A stretch of 64,000 nt of DNA from Alistipes provencensis (GTDB lineage Bacteria; Bacteroidota; Bacteroidia; Bacteroidales; Rikenellaceae), in assembly GCF_900083545.1 (NCBI RefSeq), contig NZ_LT559262.1, positions 2,637,673-2,701,672 on the forward strand, given 5' to 3'. Each line of letters opens with the position of its first letter. The first letter of the stretch is position 1. Both the position numbers and the translations under genes were made by a program. The notes under the pieces were generated by a model that was not told where the DNA came from, searched no databases, and saw only the letters and a list, made by a program, of their open reading frames with translations. Shown piece after piece: positions 7,827 through 57,487 of the stretch.

Positions 7827-8972
7827 ATGAAACTTACGATTTTAGGACCTGCGCACCCCTACCGGGGCGGCTTGGCGTCGATCATGGAGATCATGGCCCG
7901 CACGTTCCAGCGGCGGGGCAACGAGGTCGACATCAAAACCTTTACGCTGCAATATCCCTCGCTGCTGTTCCCCGGCGAGAGTCAGACGGTCGATACGCCG
8001 CCGCCTGCGGACCTGCGCATCTGCCGGTGCGTCAACACGATGAATCCCCTGAACTGGGTGCGCATCGGCCGCCGCATCCGGCGCGAACGTCCCGATTTCG
8101 TGCTGATGAAATACTGGACGCCTTTCATGGCGCCCTGCTTCGGCACCATCGCCCGGCTGGCCCGCGGCAACGGCCACACGAAGGTGCTGTGCCAGATCGA
8201 CAACGTCGAACCCCACGAACACCACCTGACCGACAAACTCTTCAACCGCTATTACCTGCGTTCGGTGGACGGTTTCGTCTATATGTCCGAACAGGTCCGC
8301 AGCGAGCTTTGCGCCTATACCGATGCCCCGGCGTTGTTCTCGCCGCACCCGCTGTTCGAGAATTTCGGCGAGCGGGTCGCGCGTTCCGAGGCGTGCGTGC
8401 GGCTGGGACTGGACCCTGCGAACCGCTATGTGCTCTTTTTCGGGCTGATCCGCGACTACAAGGGGCTGGATTTGCTGCTCGATGCGTGGACGCGGCTCAA
8501 ACGGGCCGGGCAGACCGAAGGCCGCCGGCTGATCGTGGCGGGGGAGTTCTACACGGCGAAGGAACCCTATCTGAAACAGATCGCCGACAACGGCCTGCAG
8601 GACGAGGTTTTGCTCCACGACCGCTTCATCCCCGACGACGAGGTGAAATATTACTTCTCGGCGGCCGATTTCGTCGTTCAGCCCTATAAAACGGCCACGC
8701 AGAGCGGCGTGACGCAGATCGCCTACCAGTTCTGCGTGCCGATGGTCGTCACGAAGGTCGGGGGACTGGCCGAGATCGTGCCCGACGGCCGGGTGGGGTA
8801 TGTCTGCGAGCCCACGACGGCGGGGGTCGCCGATGCGATCGAACGGATGTATGAGGGCGACACGTTGCAGCGCTTTCGGGAAAACTGCGTCGAAGAGCGC
8901 CGCCGCTTCTCGTGGGAGGAGATGTGCAACCGCATCACGGAGCTCTACCGGGTGGTCACCCCGGAGCCGTAA
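7827..8972 (+). CDS. Family 4 glycosyltransferase (GT-B fold)
   Basis: A 381-residue protein beginning with LGPAHPYRGGLASIME, the glycine-rich N-terminal loop of GT4 enzymes. The C-terminal half has the nucleotide-sugar-binding pattern FFGLIRDYKGLDLLLDAW (about residues 205-222) and a TQSGVTQIAYQFCVPMVVTKVGGLAEIV segment (about 290-317), which holds the E-x7-E-like region of the family. It is cytoplasmic or membrane-associated and transfers a sugar from a nucleotide donor. The acceptor is unknown. It heads a cassette with GT87-GT2, NodB deacetylase and GtrA, which points to cell-surface glycan assembly. Confidence 0.85.
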   Translation: MKLTILGPAHPYRGGLASIMEIMARTFQRRGNEVDIKTFTLQYPSLLFPGESQTVDTPPPADLRICRCVNTMNPLNWVRIGRRIRRERPDFVLMKYWTPFMAPCFGTIARLARGNGHTKVLCQIDNVEPHEHHLTDKLFNRYYLRSVDGFVYMSEQVRSELCAYTDAPALFSPHPLFENFGERVARSEACVRLGLDPANRYVLFFGLIRDYKGLDLLLDAWTRLKRAGQTEGRRLIVAGEFYTAKEPYLKQIADNGLQDEVLLHDRFIPDDEVKYYFSAADFVVQPYKTATQSGVTQIAYQFCVPMVVTKVGGLAEIVPDGRVGYVCEPTTAGVADAIERMYEGDTLQRFRENCVEERRRFSWEEMCNRITELYRVVTPEP

Positions 8973-9074: not shown

Positions 9075-10151
9075 GTGGCGTCACAATCGATCAATCTGAA
9101 AGCCAGATTGCTGAATCCCCGTGTGGTATTGGCTGTGTGGTTGCTCTGCACGGTTTGGATTTGCATTACGCAGTCGCTGGCCGGGCCTCAGAACTACAAC
9201 AACTTTCTGGTTTTCCGCGGGGCTTTCGACCATCTGTTCGCCTCGCTTCCCCTTTACGAACCCTATCCGCTCGAGTACGGGGACATCTATCATTACGGCC
9301 CTGTCTTTGCCTTCATCATCGCACCGTTCGCCGTGCTGCCGCCGTGGCTGGGCATGTCGCTGTGGTGCATGAGCCTTTCGCTGTTGCTCTATTGGGCCGT
9401 CCGGCAACTGCCGATCCCCGTGGTGCTGGCGAGTCTCGTGCTGTGGCTGACGCTCAACGACTTTTACGGCGCCGCCTTCAAACAGCAGTTCAACATCGCC
9501 GTCGCGGCGCTGGTCGTCGGTGCATTGGCCATGATCGAGAAACGCCGCGAAGGATGGGCCGCGCTGTTCATCGTCATCGGCACGTTCGTCAAGATTTACG
9601 GCATCGTCGGGCTGGCCTTTTTCTTTTTCGTGCGGCGCAAGGGACGTTTCATCGGCTGCATGGCGCTGTGGACTGTTGTGGTCCTGCTGCTGCCGCTGTT
9701 GTTCGTCAGCCCCGAATATCTTTGGTCGCAGTATCAGGCGTGGGCCGTCGATATTGCGCAGAAGAACGGCGAGAATATGTTCTGCGCCTATACGAACATC
9801 TCGCTGGTGGGCTGTGTGCGCAAGATCAGCGGTTCGGCGTCCTATTCCGACCTGCTGATCATCGTGCCCGCCATGGTGCTGTTCCTCCTTTCCTACCTGC
9901 GTATCGGGCAGTACAAACACCTCAGCTACCGCCTGACGATGCTGGCTTCGCTCCTGCTGTTCATCGTGTTGTTCAGCAGCGGCAGCGAACACAGCGGCTA
10001 TGTGATCGCTGCGCTCGGCATGGGTATCTGGTGGGTTAATTTCCCCCCCCCTCACGAGGATGGCTCGAATGGACACTGCTCCTACTGGCCCTTTTCGCCA
10101 GTTTCTCCTATAATTTACTCCCGACTAAATTCTACCGTGGCGTTTTCGTAG
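9075..10151 (+). CDS. GT87 (DUF2029) membrane glycosyltransferase, upstream part of a frameshifted GT87-GT2 gene
   Basis: From the probable GTG start at 9075 the protein has about eight to nine hydrophobic segments and the GT87 features YEPYPLEYGDIYHYGPVFAF (acidic loop after the first segment) and LTLNDFYGAAFKQQFN. Family members use polyprenyl-phosphate sugars as donors at the outer face of the inner membrane. After GMGIWWVNF the frame enters C9 (10043-10051) and decays into unrelated sequence, ending at 10151. One extra C (or two fewer) restores a membrane segment LEWTLLLLALFASFSYNLL. The frame then runs without a stop into the GT2 domain, giving one protein of about 644 residues. A real frameshift, phase variation or a base-call error are all possible. 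Confidence 0.75.
   Translation: MASQSINLKARLLNPRVVLAVWLLCTVWICITQSLAGPQNYNNFLVFRGAFDHLFASLPLYEPYPLEYGDIYHYGPVFAFIIAPFAVLPPWLGMSLWCMSLSLLLYWAVRQLPIPVVLASLVLWLTLNDFYGAAFKQQFNIAVAALVVGALAMIEKRREGWAALFIVIGTFVKIYGIVGLAFFFFVRRKGRFIGCMALWTVVVLLLPLLFVSPEYLWSQYQAWAVDIAQKNGENMFCAYTNISLVGCVRKISGSASYSDLLIIVPAMVLFLLSYLRIGQYKHLSYRLTMLASLLLFIVLFSSGSEHSGYVIAALGMGIWWVNFPPPHEDGSNGHCSYWPFSPVSPIIYSRLNSTVAFS
10043..10051 (+). repeat. C9 homopolymer inside the GT87-GT2 gene
   Basis: Nine C after TTAATTT and before TCACGAGG. With C9 the frame is broken; C10 or C7 joins GT87 to GT2 in one frame. It is a candidate slipped-strand site. Confidence 0.9.
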
Positions 10152-10273
10152 CCTACGCGCTGCGCTCGCTGCCGTATTTCGCCATCTGGCTCCATTGCAT
10201 CCGGAGGCTGTGGTATGAGGATTTCGCCGTCACGGATGTCCTCCTCGGCTACAAGACCCTGCCCGGTGCGGAG

Positions 10274-11008
10274 GTGCCTGTGGAGGAGCCCCGGCCGGCC
10301 GAACCGGGCGACGGGCTCGACATCGTCTGCCCGTGCTACAATCCGGATTCGGAGTTCGTGCCCGCATTGGCCCGGTCATTCGCGGAGCTCTGCGCGCGCT
10401 ATCCGGACAAACGGCTGCATCTGATCGTCGTCAACGACGGCTCGCCGCGCAATTTCGGGGACGAGGAGCGGGCGGCTCTCCGGCAGGCCGTTCCGGACGT
10501 CGAGATCGTCGACATTCCCCACGGCGGCAAAGGCGCGGCCATCCGTGCCGGCATCGCACGTTCCCGGGCGCCCTATACCGTCTATACGGACATCGACATG
10601 CCCTACACGGCGGAGTCGATGTGCGGGGTGATCGACCGTGTGTTCGCCGGAGCCGACGTGGTGATCGCCGTACGCAATGCGAGCTACCATTCGCAGCTTT
10701 CGCTTCTGCGCAAGGCGATGTCCTACGGGTCGAAACTGCTCAACCGCATCTTCCTCAACATTCGCCACACCGACACGCAGGGCGGCCTCAAAGGTCTTTC
10801 GCCCCGCGCCCGGGCGGTCATGCTGCGCACGCGTATCTCCGATTTCCTGTTCGACACCGAATTCGTCGTCCTCGCCGCGCGCGACAAGCGTATGCGCATC
10901 GAGGAGGTCGAGACCTCGCTCCGCGACGGGGTCGTCATGTCGACGATGTCCCCGCGGGTGCTGTTCCGTGAATTGAAAAACTTTTTCCGCATCGCTGTCC
11001 GCCTATGA
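10274..11008 (+). CDS. Family 2 glycosyltransferase, polyprenyl-phosphate sugar synthase type (downstream part of GT87-GT2)
   Basis: GT-A fold with DIVCPCYNPDSEF, VVNDGSPRNFG, HGGKGAAIRAG and the DxD-type YTDIDMPYT, then DTQGGLKGLSPRA and the late DFLFDTEFVVLA motif of DPM1/GtrB-like enzymes. These make a polyprenyl-phosphate sugar from a nucleotide sugar. The coordinates use a GTG at 10274 as the earliest plausible independent start. However, the same frame is open from 10052 and codes for the missing end of the GT87 membrane part, so the native protein is probably a fusion. The stop overlaps the next start (ATGA at 11005). Confidence 0.8.
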   Translation: MPVEEPRPAEPGDGLDIVCPCYNPDSEFVPALARSFAELCARYPDKRLHLIVVNDGSPRNFGDEERAALRQAVPDVEIVDIPHGGKGAAIRAGIARSRAPYTVYTDIDMPYTAESMCGVIDRVFAGADVVIAVRNASYHSQLSLLRKAMSYGSKLLNRIFLNIRHTDTQGGLKGLSPRARAVMLRTRISDFLFDTEFVVLAARDKRMRIEEVETSLRDGVVMSTMSPRVLFRELKNFFRIAVRL

Positions 11009-11784
11009 ACGTGACACTTGGTTTCGACGTCGAGGAGTTCGATTTCCCGCTCGAAAGGGGCCGTGAAATCGATCTCGGCACCCAGCTTTCGGTCAGCGCC
11101 GAAGGGCTGGAATTTCTGCTGGAACTGCTCTCCCGGCTGGATCTGCGGGCCACGTTCTATACGACGGCCAATTTCGCCCTGAACCGCACGGACCTCGTCC
11201 GCCGCATCGTCGCCGGAGGGCACGAGGTGGCCTCGCACGACTACTGCCACGGGCTGACCGCCGGGGCCGATCCTGCCGGCAGCCGTCGGGTGCTGGAAGA
11301 GCTGACCGGACAGCGCATCGTCGGCTACCGCGCCCCGCGGCTGGCCGTCGCTTCGTCCGCAGCGCTTCGGGACGCCGGGTATGCCTATAACTCGTCGGTC
11401 AATCCGACGTGGATTCCGACGCGCTATAACAACCTCCGGGCTCCGCGTTCCGTGTCGCAGGAGGAGGGGCTCACGATCTATCCGGTTTCGGTCTCCGCGC
11501 CTTTCCGGGTGCCGCTGTTCTGGATTTCGCTGCACGTCATGCCGCTGCCGATCTATAAACGGCTGTGCCGCAGCGCTCTGCGCCGCGACGGGCATCTCAA
11601 CCTCTATTTCCATCCGTGGGAGTTTTCCGCAAGGCTGGGCGATCCGGCTTTCGGGGTTCCGGGCTATCTTACGCACTGCTCGGGGGAGAAATTGCAGCGG
11701 AAATTCACCCGACTGCTGGAGTGGCTGAAAGCCCGCGGCTGCCGGTTTTCGACCACCCGCGAATACCTCGGCTGCGATGAATAG
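11005..11784 (+). CDS. Polysaccharide deacetylase (NodB domain)
   Basis: A 259-residue protein with the NodB core: GFDVEEFD at residues 6-13 (catalytic and metal Asp region), LRATFYTTANFAL, and GGHEVASHDYCHGL near residues 72-85 giving the two metal His. The family hydrolyses N- or O-acetyl groups on glycans with a divalent metal. The start codon overlaps the GT2 stop, and its own stop overlaps the GtrA start by 8 bases, so the three genes are translated as a unit. It probably tailors the glycan made by the adjacent transferases. Confidence 0.85.
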   Translation: MNVTLGFDVEEFDFPLERGREIDLGTQLSVSAEGLEFLLELLSRLDLRATFYTTANFALNRTDLVRRIVAGGHEVASHDYCHGLTAGADPAGSRRVLEELTGQRIVGYRAPRLAVASSAALRDAGYAYNSSVNPTWIPTRYNNLRAPRSVSQEEGLTIYPVSVSAPFRVPLFWISLHVMPLPIYKRLCRSALRRDGHLNLYFHPWEFSARLGDPAFGVPGYLTHCSGEKLQRKFTRLLEWLKARGCRFSTTREYLGCDE

Positions 11785-12187
11785 GGTAGCGGTGTTGCTT
11801 CGGGCGCTCTACGAGAGTTCGTTCGTGCGCTTCGCCGCGGTCGGAGGCGTCGCCACGGCGGTCAATTATGCGACCTATGTCGTGCTGGTGCGGAGCTTCG
11901 ACGACCTCCATCCGGCCGTGGCCTATCTCTGTGCCTTCTGCGTCAGCATCGTCTGCAACTTTCTGCTGTCGAGCTATTTTACGTTCCGCGTGCGGCCTTC
12001 CGCGCGTCGTGCCGTGCGCTTTCTGGCGGCCCACCTCATCAACCTCGTGAACGAACTGGTGCTGCTCGAAATCTGGCTGTGGGCGGGCGTTCCGAAGCTC
12101 TATGCACCGCTGTGCGTCTTTCTGGTGGCCTTTCCCATCAATTTCCTGATGGTCCGCTTCGCCCTCCGCGGGCATCGGAAATCCTGA
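11777..12187 (+). CDS. GtrA-family membrane protein (lipid-linked sugar flippase type)
   Basis: A 136-residue protein with four hydrophobic segments and the GtrA opening SSFVRFAAVGGVATAVNYATY (residues about 14-34) plus NFLLSSYFTFR. GtrA proteins are thought to flip polyprenyl-phosphate sugar made by GtrB to the outer leaflet for a GtrC transferase. All three roles are present here: GT2 (GtrB-like), GT87 (GtrC-like) and this protein. It ends the cassette, 10 bases before a terminator. Confidence 0.88.
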   Translation: MNRVAVLLRALYESSFVRFAAVGGVATAVNYATYVVLVRSFDDLHPAVAYLCAFCVSIVCNFLLSSYFTFRVRPSARRAVRFLAAHLINLVNELVLLEIWLWAGVPKLYAPLCVFLVAFPINFLMVRFALRGHRKS

Positions 12188-48641: not shown

Positions 48642-51485
48642 TTATCGAATCTTGACAGACAGCGCGGCCCCGAAGAAGAAGGTCTTTTCGTTGCGCCGGG
48701 TGTACTTGCCCGGATAGACCTTGCTTTCCCAGATCGGCGTGCTGCGGAACATGTTGTTGGCGAAGAACGAAATGCGCATGAAGTTGCGGATTTCCTTGGT
48801 CAGATTGATGTTGATGCAGAGCATCGGGGGCATCGAACCTTCGCGGATCAACCGGCGGTTGTCGAGGCGTGAGCGCATGTCTACGGCTTGGAACTCCTCC
48901 TCCCCGATGCGCGAAGCGTCGAAATCGTATACCCGGCCGTCCAGACGCGAGATGTACTTCACGGGGATTGAGTCGTTGCCGTAGGTGGTGTACGAATGTT
49001 CCTGCCACTTGACGCTGGCTGTCAGGGTCACGACGAAGCCGATGCGCGGAATGTTGTGCGTGATGCGCAGGTTGGTGGTGGTCGCCTCCGCGTGCTCCGT
49101 CTTGTTGCCCGGTTCGAAAACGCCCATGTGGGGATAGGAGCCCGCTACGGTATTGCCTGTCGTATGGTTGTCGAACGTGTAGTAGTTCTTCCACGACTTG
49201 TACTGCGTCCAGCTTCCGTTCAGGCCGAACGAGGTGCGGATGGAGTTGATGCGTCCGAAGTCGATGTCGAACTCGACGCCCCGGCTTTCGTAGGCGAAGT
49301 AGTTGGTCGGAGTCGAATACTGGAGCAGGATCTTGTCCGACGACTTGAGCGAAAGTTCGGGCATATCCGTTTCATTGGCCGGTTTGGCCGCCGAATACTG
49401 GTTGTAGTCCACGCACTTGAACGTGTCGAACGTCGGGCTGGTCATATAGCCGTTGTGGGTCTTGTCCTCGAAATAGGTGACCGAACCGCGCACCTGTCCG
49501 ATCTTGAAGTCGGCGCCGACCTCCCATTTGGTGGTTTTGGCCAGTTTGAGGTTCGGATTCTCCGCCGAATAGACGTGCGTCGTGGCGATCTGGAACTTCT
49601 GGGCGTCGCTGAAACCGCTTGCCGTCGTGTTGTCGAAGTTCAGAATGTCGAAATAGGCATTGTCGGGGTGGAGATAACCCAGCGAGGGGGCTTTGTATGT
49701 GATGCCGTAACCGCCGCGGATGCTCAGTTTTTCGGGAATCAGGTCATACGAGGCGTTGACGCGGGGCGCAACGCCTCCGTCCATGTCGTAAACGTGGTCA
49801 TAGCGGACGCCGGCGACGATTTCCAGCCTGCGGTGCAGGATGTCCGTCGAAAAATGCTCCTCGGCGTAGAGGCTGAACTGGTGCATGAACGGCACGTCGC
49901 TGAAGGCACGTTCACGCTGGGTGGTGAAGTTGGTGTTGACCACCCGACGCGGCGGATTTTCCGGGTCGAATACCTTGCCTTCGCCCAGATTGCCCGTAGC
50001 GCGGTACTCGCCGCCGACGATCAGCCGGTGGTGCGTGCGTCCCAAGTCGCCGGCGAAGTTGGCCGCCAGTTGTACGAAGGTGTTCAGCTCCTTGCCGTAG
50101 ATATCGTATTCCGCCGTGTAGTCCGAGGGCAGACGCCACGCCTTGCCGTTCTTGTCCGCATCGGGGATGTTCGTGATTTTCGTACCGTCGGACAGGAAAA
50201 TGTCCCGCCCGGGAATGCTCGAAAGAATGGCCCCGTCGGTTTTCGAGGTGGAGTAGGTCCAGTCGGAGTTGGTGGCGAATTCCGACCGGTAGGTCTTTTT
50301 GTCCGTATAGTTCGCCGAGACGGTGTACCGGAGGTTCTTGAACCAGTTCCTGTTGAAGTTGAACGAGCCGTTGGTGTTGAAACGCAGTCCCAAATCGCGC
50401 TGGGTCATTACGTCCAGATCGCGTTTGTCGTCGGGGTTGGGCTCGGCCTTGTCCTTGGTGTAGAAAAAGTTCATCGAGGTGTTGGTCGACCATTTTCCCA
50501 CGGTGTTCGAGTAGCTGACACGTCCCGTTACCCGATTATAGGTGTCGTATCCTTCGGTAGGGTCGTTCTGGGCAAAGGTATAGTCGACGCCGTAGTTGAG
50601 TACGCCGGCCCTGTCGCCGAGACCTACGCCGTGCGATGCGGAGGCCATGTAGACATTGGGATTGATGTCCAACTGGATCGACAGCGGAGCGCGTCCGGCC
50701 TTGCTGTTGACGATGACGGCGCCCGATGCGATGTCGCCGTATTGGGCCGATGCGATACCCCGGATCACCTCCACCGATTCGATGTTGCTGGTGGTGATGG
50801 TTCGCATGTCGACGCCCGAATTGGGAGTGGAGATGCTGGGTCCGGCATTGGCGCCCAACGACAACGACAGGGTTTGCATGTTGGCGTTGTTCGAAACGGG
50901 GGCGCCGTCCATGATGATGGCCGTACCGAAACTCTGGCCGTTGCGGATGGAGAACGTGCCGACTTTCTTGAGCGCTATCTCTTCGGAGGTGCGCGTATCG
51001 GCACCCGGGAGCAGCGACATGATGTCGGCCAGCGAGGTGGCCTGAATGTGCTCCATGGCCGATTTGGAGATCTTCGATGCGGTTGCCGCACCGGTCTTTT
51101 TCGACTCGGCCGACACCACGACATTCTCCAGATAGAACGACGTGGCCTTCAGAATGAATTTGAGGGAGTCCCGGGCGGGAAGCTGGATCGTTTGCGAGAG
51201 GGGCTCATAGCCCAAGGAACTGATTTCGACCTTGTATTTTCCCGGGTTTGATAATTGGATTTCGAACCGACCTTTGACGTCGGTGGTTGTCGCTACACCG
51301 ATCTCAGGCAGGGAGACAACGGCATAGGCCAGCGGGGTGGTTTTGGAAATTCCCCCCCCCTCGGTTTCCGAGGCCAGCACTGTGCCGTTAAACGAGACCT
51401 TTCCTTTGCTCTGCGCCGACAAAGAAGCGGCACTGCAAAGTATCAGAATACTCGTTAATACACTCAATTTGGCAATAACCTTCAT
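48642..51485 (-). CDS. TonB-dependent receptor, first gene of the C25 peptidase operon
   Basis: A 947-residue outer-membrane receptor. After the signal peptide (about 24 residues) comes a carboxypeptidase-like domain (TPLAYAVVSLPEIGVATTTDVKGRFEIQLS). A plug follows with DIMSLLPGADTRTSEEI and TAIIMDGAPVSNNANMQ, then a 22-strand barrel with repeated TonB-receptor loops (GGYGITYKAPSLGYLHPDN). A G9 run on the coding strand (51352-51360) codes for Gly43-45. It is in frame here, but slippage would truncate the protein before the plug. No anti-sigma-interacting signalling domain is evident. Confidence 0.88.
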   Translation of the reverse strand: MKVIAKLSVLTSILILCSAASLSAQSKGKVSFNGTVLASETEGGGISKTTPLAYAVVSLPEIGVATTTDVKGRFEIQLSNPGKYKVEISSLGYEPLSQTIQLPARDSLKFILKATSFYLENVVVSAESKKTGAATASKISKSAMEHIQATSLADIMSLLPGADTRTSEEIALKKVGTFSIRNGQSFGTAIIMDGAPVSNNANMQTLSLSLGANAGPSISTPNSGVDMRTITTSNIESVEVIRGIASAQYGDIASGAVIVNSKAGRAPLSIQLDINPNVYMASASHGVGLGDRAGVLNYGVDYTFAQNDPTEGYDTYNRVTGRVSYSNTVGKWSTNTSMNFFYTKDKAEPNPDDKRDLDVMTQRDLGLRFNTNGSFNFNRNWFKNLRYTVSANYTDKKTYRSEFATNSDWTYSTSKTDGAILSSIPGRDIFLSDGTKITNIPDADKNGKAWRLPSDYTAEYDIYGKELNTFVQLAANFAGDLGRTHHRLIVGGEYRATGNLGEGKVFDPENPPRRVVNTNFTTQRERAFSDVPFMHQFSLYAEEHFSTDILHRRLEIVAGVRYDHVYDMDGGVAPRVNASYDLIPEKLSIRGGYGITYKAPSLGYLHPDNAYFDILNFDNTTASGFSDAQKFQIATTHVYSAENPNLKLAKTTKWEVGADFKIGQVRGSVTYFEDKTHNGYMTSPTFDTFKCVDYNQYSAAKPANETDMPELSLKSSDKILLQYSTPTNYFAYESRGVEFDIDFGRINSIRTSFGLNGSWTQYKSWKNYYTFDNHTTGNTVAGSYPHMGVFEPGNKTEHAEATTTNLRITHNIPRIGFVVTLTASVKWQEHSYTTYGNDSIPVKYISRLDGRVYDFDASRIGEEEFQAVDMRSRLDNRRLIREGSMPPMLCININLTKEIRNFMRISFFANNMFRSTPIWESKVYPGKYTRRNEKTFFFGAALSVKIR
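51352..51360 (+). repeat. C9 homopolymer (G9 in the coding strand) in the TonB-dependent receptor
   Basis: Nine C after GGAAATT and before TCGG. In frame with nine; any change by one or two bases truncates the receptor after about 45 residues. Confidence 0.9.
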
Positions 51486-56036: not shown

Positions 56037-57487
56037 ATGAAACAAATCGCCAAGAACCTTTCCTTCGCAGGGATGTTGCTGCTCGTCGGCTTCTTTGCGT
56101 CGTGCAAGGACGATGAGGATCCCATCAAGGATCTGACTGTCAAAATTCCCCCCCCCTCGCGGGAGAATATGTCATTGAACAGGGGCAGAGTTTAGAAATC
56201 CCCTTTACGGTAGGTGAGGCGAAGAACGCCGAACTGACCGCCACGGCAACGCCCGACAAGACCGAATACACGGTCGCAGCGACTCTTTCCGCATCCGATC
56301 CCGGATCGGGAGTCATCACGGTAACGGCACCCGATCTCATCCTTTCTCCCGTTACCGTCACCATCACCCTCAAGGTCGACGATTCCAAGACACAGCGTTC
56401 CGCAACCGGGACGGTGACCGTATCCTCGAAACTCATCGACGGATTCACCGAGATCACCACCCCCGCCAACTGCTATATAGCAGCTCCCGGAGCCCTTGTG
56501 AAATTCCCCGCAAATATCGGCAACACGACCGAAAAAGCCGCTTTCAAGACGGCTGAACTCCTGTGGCAGGACGCCGCAGGACTGGTCGAACAACTCATAG
56601 CCGCCCCTGAAGAGAACTGCGTGTATGCAATTCTCAAATCAGGTGTGAGCGGTAACGCCGTCGTCGCCGTCAAGAACGCCGACGGAGCCGTCGTGTGGAG
56701 CTACCACCTCTGGGTGGCCGATTTCGATCCCGATGCCAGCGTCATGACTTGGACCGATGCCGATGGCGGCGTCACCTATAAGATGATGGACCGCTATGTG
56801 GGTGCCGTCAGCAACCAGCCGGGCAGCGATCTTTCCAACGGTCTGTTCTACCAGTGGGGCCGCAAGGACCCGTTCGGCACCTCGAACTACGAGGGCAAGC
56901 TGAAAGCCATGTACAATATGGCCGGCGAAGAGGTGACGCGCACGGTCGAGGCTTGCGCCGCCGAGGATAACATTCCCAATTCGATCGCCAATCCGCTGAC
57001 CCATTATTCGGGTGTGAGCGGCGGCAATTACAGTTGGCTCACGACCGTCAAGGCCAATATCGCCACCGACGCCATGAAGGACCTCTGGGGTGCCGAGTCG
57101 GGCACGCAGACCAAGTACGACCCGTGTCCGGCAGGCTGGCGCGTCGCTCCGCAGGCCGCTTGGAAATTCTATAACGATGCCGATGTGACCAAAGAGATCG
57201 TCTTTGCCGCCGGTGTCGAGTCGCCTGCGAACAAGGATCAGTTGGGACGCAATGTCTCGACCGACGGCACCACGAAATTCTATTTCCCCTCGCAGGGCGA
57301 GATCGCCCACGGCGGCGGCTACTCGAACGGTATCGGTACGAACTGGCCCAGCGGCAAAGCATGGTCGTCGACGGTGGATGCGGCCTATTTCCGTTCGTTC
57401 GGAACGACGGTTTCGCCGACCTCGGTCAGCTACACGGGCGGATTCTCCCAAGGATACGAACTTCCCGTGCGCTGCGTGAAACTCTGA
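56037..57487 (+). pseudogene. Surface lipoprotein with Ig-like and FISUMP-like domains, out of frame at a C9 tract
   Basis: The ATG at 56037 begins a lipoprotein signal with Cys23, followed by KDDED, the acidic type of tail that marks surface export in Bacteroidota. After VKIP the frame enters C9 (56148-56156) and stops at about 56190. One extra C (or two fewer) continues into LAGEYVIEQGQSLEIPFTV and an open frame to 57487, giving about 483 residues. This has one Ig-like domain (about 45-120) and a C-terminal FISUMP-like domain (LFYQWGRKDPF, YDPCPAGWRV, ending PVRCVKL). The gene may be reversibly off, mutated or miscalled. Reinitiation at the GTG/ATG-like codons near 56414 is possible but would lack a signal. 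Confidence 0.72.
56148..56156 (+). repeat. C9 homopolymer in the first FISUMP-like lipoprotein gene
   Basis: Nine C after CAAAATT and before TCGCGGG. Breaks the frame here; C10 or C7 would restore it. Confidence 0.9.

Follow-up and report, generated by a model that had tools for sequence, protein, structure and literature searches.

Layout of the cassette and its likeness to known pathways

The DNA analysed, referred to as the window, is a stretch of 64,000 nucleotides from the 3.8 Mb genome of Alistipes provencensis, and the close relatives recovered with the cassette described here also belong to Alistipes. A GT4-type glycosyltransferase gene (7827..8972, Pfam Glyco_trans_1_4, 2e-20), which is the upstream neighbour in A. 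montrealensis and in MAG Zagget8 as well, is followed on the same (+) strand by the GT87 (GT-C type) half of a longer coding region (9075..10151, PF09594, 2.5e-31). As now read, this half starts with a GTG at 9075 and stops at 10151 after 358 amino acids, past a run of nine C residues (C9) read directly in the sequence at 10043..10051, and the final 32 residues of the resulting stub are not in the homologous frame. The remainder of the GT87 membrane part and a GT2 polyprenyl-phosphate glycosyltransferase domain (PF00535, Glycos_transf_2, 2.6e-12) are encoded at 10052..11008 (+) in the -1 frame, which is open from the tract through 11008. Between the tract and a GTG at 10274 this frame contains no ATG, GTG or TTG in the window. 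The GT2 stop is overlapped by the start of a NodB-type polysaccharide deacetylase gene (11005..11784, +, PF01522, Polysacc_deac_1, 2e-9), whose end is in turn overlapped by the start of a gene for a GtrA-family small membrane protein, a presumed flippase (11777..12187, +, PF04138, 1.1e-22). The other neighbours, as identified by Pfam, are thioesterase, ferritin-like and GT4 genes. The original prediction of a GT87 frame broken at a C9 tract, and of a NodB deacetylase and a GtrA protein with overlapping starts downstream, was borne out at these positions, and its frame arithmetic, which gave a joined reading frame of 644 residues, was correct.

The cassette had also been likened to phage-type gtr operons, and this part did not hold: inspection by eye of the open reading frame lists between approximately 5.5 and 16.9 kb revealed no recognisable phage genes, and aminosugar-lipid pathways are a better match for the GT-C partner and the deacetylase. 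A GtrA-family protein and a GtrB-like GT2 are shared with phage gtrABC; however, GtrB and GtrC are separate proteins there, whereas here neither occurs separately and a deacetylase is added. Furthermore, GtrB of gtrABC is a protein of its own with C-terminal membrane helices, whereas the GT2 of the cassette is fused and hydropathy indicated no transmembrane-like stretch after residue 349 of the 644-residue fused chain. The Arn and Flm-Nax aminosugar pathways combine a GT2, a deacylase, a small membrane protein and a GT-C enzyme. In ArnC-ArnD-ArnEF-ArnT and in FlmF2-NaxD-FlmK, which serve lipid A aminosugar modification, there is likewise a DPM-type GT2 acting on polyprenyl phosphate with a NodB-family deacylase next to it, and the small membrane protein and the GT-C transferase are common to both. 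In its logic the gene set thus resembles these lipid-linked aminosugar pathways (ArnC-ArnD-flippase-ArnT) more than phage gtrABC. The differences are that Arn and Flm-Nax use a GT83 enzyme (ArnT/FlmK) and ArnE/F where the cassette has GT87 alone and GtrA, and that the GT2 is fused behind the GT-C part only here.

The PDB sequences nearest to the GT2 were GtrB sll0501 and ArnC. For fold comparison the predicted model of the A. montrealensis chain was used; AlphaFold gave the fused chain a mean pLDDT of 58 with a poor GT-C half, and the GT2 half alone was taken. Its fold neighbours were ArnC, GtrB and DPM synthase, with ArnC the nearest. The best NCBIfam match of the NodB protein was TIGR03006, the XrtA-system polysaccharide deacetylase family (4.6e-22, under the cut-off of that family). 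PpgS, which in mycobacterial galactosamine transfer works with a GT-C partner, was among the weak family matches of the GT2, far under its cut-off; it comes from another phylum and is not fused.

The GT87-GT2 chain among relatives

When 180 genomes of the genus were searched with the GT2 half, 65 matched, of which four were close (E 1e-114 or better): the window's own genome, MAG Zagget8 (G015), A. montrealensis kh20 (G011) and MAG G166. The other 61 matches were weak (E 6.9e-7 or worse). The GT87 half found 23 of the 180 genomes, with close matches in the own genome, Zagget8 and A. montrealensis; the GT87 of G031 was 48% identical and a separate protein, and the identity of the other GT87 matches in the genus was 24-30%. 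A single open GT87-GT2 chain is encoded in A. montrealensis (L126, 644 amino acids) and in MAG G166 (L128, 630 amino acids counted from its Met), and in Zagget8 (L127) the chain is broken at the same C9 as in the window. The four Alistipes genomes with this GT2 therefore divide into two with an open fusion and two with a broken one, so that, judged from the reading frames, the GT87-GT2 fusion is real. The single chain that had been predicted was found, and the arrangement that would have spoken against it, relatives consistently encoding the two proteins apart, was not seen within the genus.

In an order-wide sample of 393 genomes, 39 matched; outside Alistipes, none of the matches listed covered both halves. 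The GT2-then-NodB pair, which is common to the cassette and the Arn and Flm-Nax systems, was retained in unfused form in two places: a Rikenellaceae MAG (L129) has the GT2 with NodB and GtrA but no GT87, and a genome of another Bacteroidales family (G571, L202 3286-4712) has an unfused GT2-NodB pair in a locus that ends inside NodB. Because this part is unfused outside Alistipes, the fusion looks to have been derived within the genus. For GT87 relatives in the order that stand alone, the alignment to the model mostly reaches positions 393-409, which lie past the break point, so that the stub lacks a conserved part.

To estimate selection, the window was compared pairwise with Zagget8 by the Nei-Gojobori method. 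The following dN/dS values were obtained: 0.13 (GT87 upstream of the tract), 0.17 (the segment directly after the tract), 0.13 (GT2), 0.20 (NodB) and 0.19 (GtrA). Differences in the post-tract segment were distributed over the codon positions as 3/7/20 (binomial p=2e-4). Since in the window genome no start codon precedes GTG 10274, the post-tract segment can be translated there only through the tract; in Zagget8 an ATG lies 21 bases past it. Purifying selection on this segment between the two broken genomes argues that a joined product has been made in these two lineages.

Runs of exactly nine C in the genome

The tract belongs to a genome-wide set of about 110 exact-nine runs, which the original prediction had missed. 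The genome contains 109 runs of exactly nine C/G and seven of exactly eight; the window itself has two further C9 runs and no C8 run. A run peculiar to the GT87-GT2 gene is ruled out by this genome-wide set, and loss of mutS as the cause of the long runs is ruled out by an intact mutS1. Among 15 Alistipes genomes the exact-nine counts ranged from 15 to 173 and exceeded the exact-eight counts in 12, with no such excess in G005, G031 and G056. In 59 other genomes of the order, for which exact-nine runs alone were counted, the number was 0 to 13.

The runs are polar. A 1.26-Mb sample of the own genome, in part picked for containing listed runs, was oriented by GC skew; lengths 5-11 were represented there by 376, 8, 1, 1, 42, 2 and 2 runs in the orientation of the C9 runs and by 757, 34, 2, 1, 2, 2 and 0 in the opposite one. 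The polarity of exact-nine runs was thus 42:2, and that of runs of ten 2:2. These counts were made directly in sequence stretches; the list of run places was incomplete (a G10 in L086 was missing) and was therefore not used. The polarity was 14:1 in the arm between 3.0 and 3.79 Mb, for which the list had named no run places beforehand. The base preceding the run was A or T in 43 of 44 cases in the own genome, and runs of 5-6 were preceded by G about half the time. In 400 kb of a second complete genome (G152), sampled at even spacing apart from one stretch, there were 17 exact-nine runs, two eights and two sevens; the polarity, counted from the listing, was 13:4 in the same sense, and G before the run was commoner than in the own genome.

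A sample of 50 runs of nine or more was examined for position and frame. Thirty-three were inside called genes, seven at most 100 bases from one and ten farther away. By our own reading of the script output, 22 were in frame, to which five were added by eye, five broke a frame, and 18 were intergenic or unclear; the intergenic runs were nearly all nine long as well. The five frame-breaking runs are in the GT87-GT2 gene, in a lipoprotein-like gene at window position 56148 and at three places elsewhere (lengths 9, 10 and 11), one of them being a C10 in a SusC-like gene, and the frame offset differs among the broken genes. The lipoprotein-like gene (window 56038-57484) is broken at a C9 run at 56148-56156, and its Zagget8 counterpart is broken too. 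At 51352-51360 of the window, a G9 on the coding strand lies in frame just behind the signal peptide of a SusC-like TonB-dependent receptor. The homologue of the broken loop also carries an in-frame G9 run in the second GT87 of the own genome (L092 12039) and in the fused gene of MAG G166 (L128 2060).

Genes bearing a tract often encode SusC-like receptors, hybrid sensors, lipoproteins and glycosyltransferases. Among 42 tract genes, CarbopepD_reg_2 was found in seven, Plug (TonB) in six, HisKA in six and GT87 in two. These families were absent from the 25 commonest families of 42 control genes, so that each has at most one control member, and single-family Fisher tests were borderline; one of the controls (window 56414-57484) is no whole gene but the distal piece of a tract-broken one, which the simple gene caller had split. 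The tract list also named an NAD-dependent DNA ligase and a DNA polymerase III subunit, and in both cases the run is outside the gene.

Conservation of the runs was followed between species, with one genome per species. All three genomes with a C run (window, Zagget8 and A. montrealensis) have C9 at one and the same position of the GT87-GT2 gene, and the presence of the same run in two other genomes indicates that the tract is more than chance; the A. montrealensis gene is open with the same run length because its flanks differ. Between the own genome and Zagget8 the run is C9/C9 in the GT87-GT2 gene, at 56148, and in a hybrid sensor gene where both borders have shifted by one base. At 51352 it is C9 in the own genome and C8 in Zagget8, by a substitution that kept the frame. 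The start of a SusC-like gene has C11 in two species (L091 2809, L117 8844), in frame by eye. One C8 of Zagget8 has no run of eight at the own-genome site, and several runs had no counterpart region within the compared stretches. Taken together, the conservation of length nine exceeds what simple slippage would lead one to expect.

Possible meanings of the frame break

The identity and order of the domains are observed, and from them the locus can be proposed to encode a four-step lipid-linked sugar route with two steps joined in one chain. The GT2 domain would attach a sugar to polyprenyl phosphate on the inner side of the membrane, the NodB enzyme would take an acyl group off the lipid-linked sugar, GtrA would help this lipid across the membrane, and the GT87 part would transfer the sugar to a glycan or lipid on the outer side, both substrate and acceptor being putative. 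If true, this would be a novel design for such a pathway, with production and use of a lipid-linked sugar combined in one chain and two membrane faces coupled; a search of the literature by title, with most subscription journals out of reach, found no report of a GT87-GT2 fusion.

The frame break and the selection beyond it are plain, and a switch at C9 is plausible. That GT87-GT2 is a contingency gene, in which slippage in the C9 run switches the frame, is the reading we favour, with about an even chance of being right. A G/C run of eight or more lies in the coding frame, a change of its length alters the frame, and open and broken frames occur among relatives, though the difference is in the flanks and not in run length. 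Slippage would shift the frame, and the whole enzyme would be produced in a small fraction of cells or in other strains; the clone of the window would have a GT87 stub that lacks its two final membrane helices, and would form no joined GT2. The run belongs to a genome-wide exact-nine class with many members in genes for surface and regulatory functions. In favour of this reading are the open chains in A. montrealensis and MAG G166 beside the broken ones in the window and Zagget8, the selection past the tract together with a stub lacking a conserved part, the in-frame G9 in the homologous loop of the GT87 paralogue and of MAG G166, the richness of tract genes in CarbopepD_reg_2, Plug and HisKA, and the frame breaks at five of the 50 runs sampled. 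The main point against it is the constancy of length nine: both broken genomes have the same C9, as do the gene at 56148 and its Zagget8 counterpart, lengths are sharply peaked at nine, unlike what is expected of freely slipping tracts, and orthologous runs stay at nine where their borders move by substitution. The intact mutS also speaks against it, as does the possibility that the second half is made alone, from the ATG of Zagget8 or, as a helix-less GT2, from GTG 10274 of the window.

In the main rival reading, the exact-nine run would be a DNA element of constrained length that has its own role (e.g. a polar replication, segregation or recombination signal). Surface and accessory genes would tolerate it in loops, and the frame breaks would be side effects that are cured or bypassed in some cells. 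The near absence of runs of 6-8 beside the exact-nine excess, the skew polarity (42:2, 14:1 in the unlisted arm and 13:4 in the second complete genome, as against 2:2 for 10-mers), the A/T before the run in 43 of 44 cases, the length of nine in nearly all intergenic runs and its retention despite moved borders all agree with such an element. However, no binding protein or known signal was identified, the number of runs differs greatly across the genus (15 to 173) with three of 15 genomes showing no excess over eight, and the enrichment in surface and regulatory genes fits contingency loci too; we consider this explanation rather unlikely.

It is improbable that all cells overcome the break through slippage of RNA polymerase or the ribosome at the C run, so that one allele yields both the short GT87 and the joined enzyme. 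The identical tract and frame offset in two species and the purifying selection past the break would be compatible with it, but the A. montrealensis chain has an identical C9 and an open frame, which means that the offset is not conserved; nor is it uniform among the sampled broken genes, and most coding runs are plainly in frame. An assembly error, with a true run of another length and a whole gene, is very doubtful: homopolymers are the commonest class of error and the other half of each gene is intact and under selection, but two separate assemblies agree on the run length and both also give runs of 11 at a second shared site.

Extending the contingency reading to the whole set, it can be suggested, tentatively and with rather less than even confidence, that the approximately 100 polar exact-nine C runs form a lineage-specific Alistipes class in surface, sensor and glycan genes, held at nine by selection or strand-dependent mutation, whose slips would generate a large phase-variation repertoire including GT87-GT2. 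This class is a more surprising result than the break in the fused gene. Phase variation in Bacteroidales is known mainly through DNA inversions, and the same title search, under the same restriction to accessible journals, found no report of homopolymer phase variation in Alistipes. If the roughly one hundred runs in receptors, sensors and glycosyltransferases are switches, common gut bacteria would have another such mechanism besides inversion; whether the runs are switches or replication-linked sites can be tested, given their polarity and fixed length. The poly-G/C contingency loci of Campylobacter and Helicobacter likewise have G/C runs of about nine in surface-glycan genes; in contrast to them, the lengths here are almost all exactly nine and polarised along the chromosome of a member of the Bacteroidales with intact mutS, and switching is presumptive. 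For one such locus, the poly-G tract of cgtB, a frame change has been described (PMC6437147).
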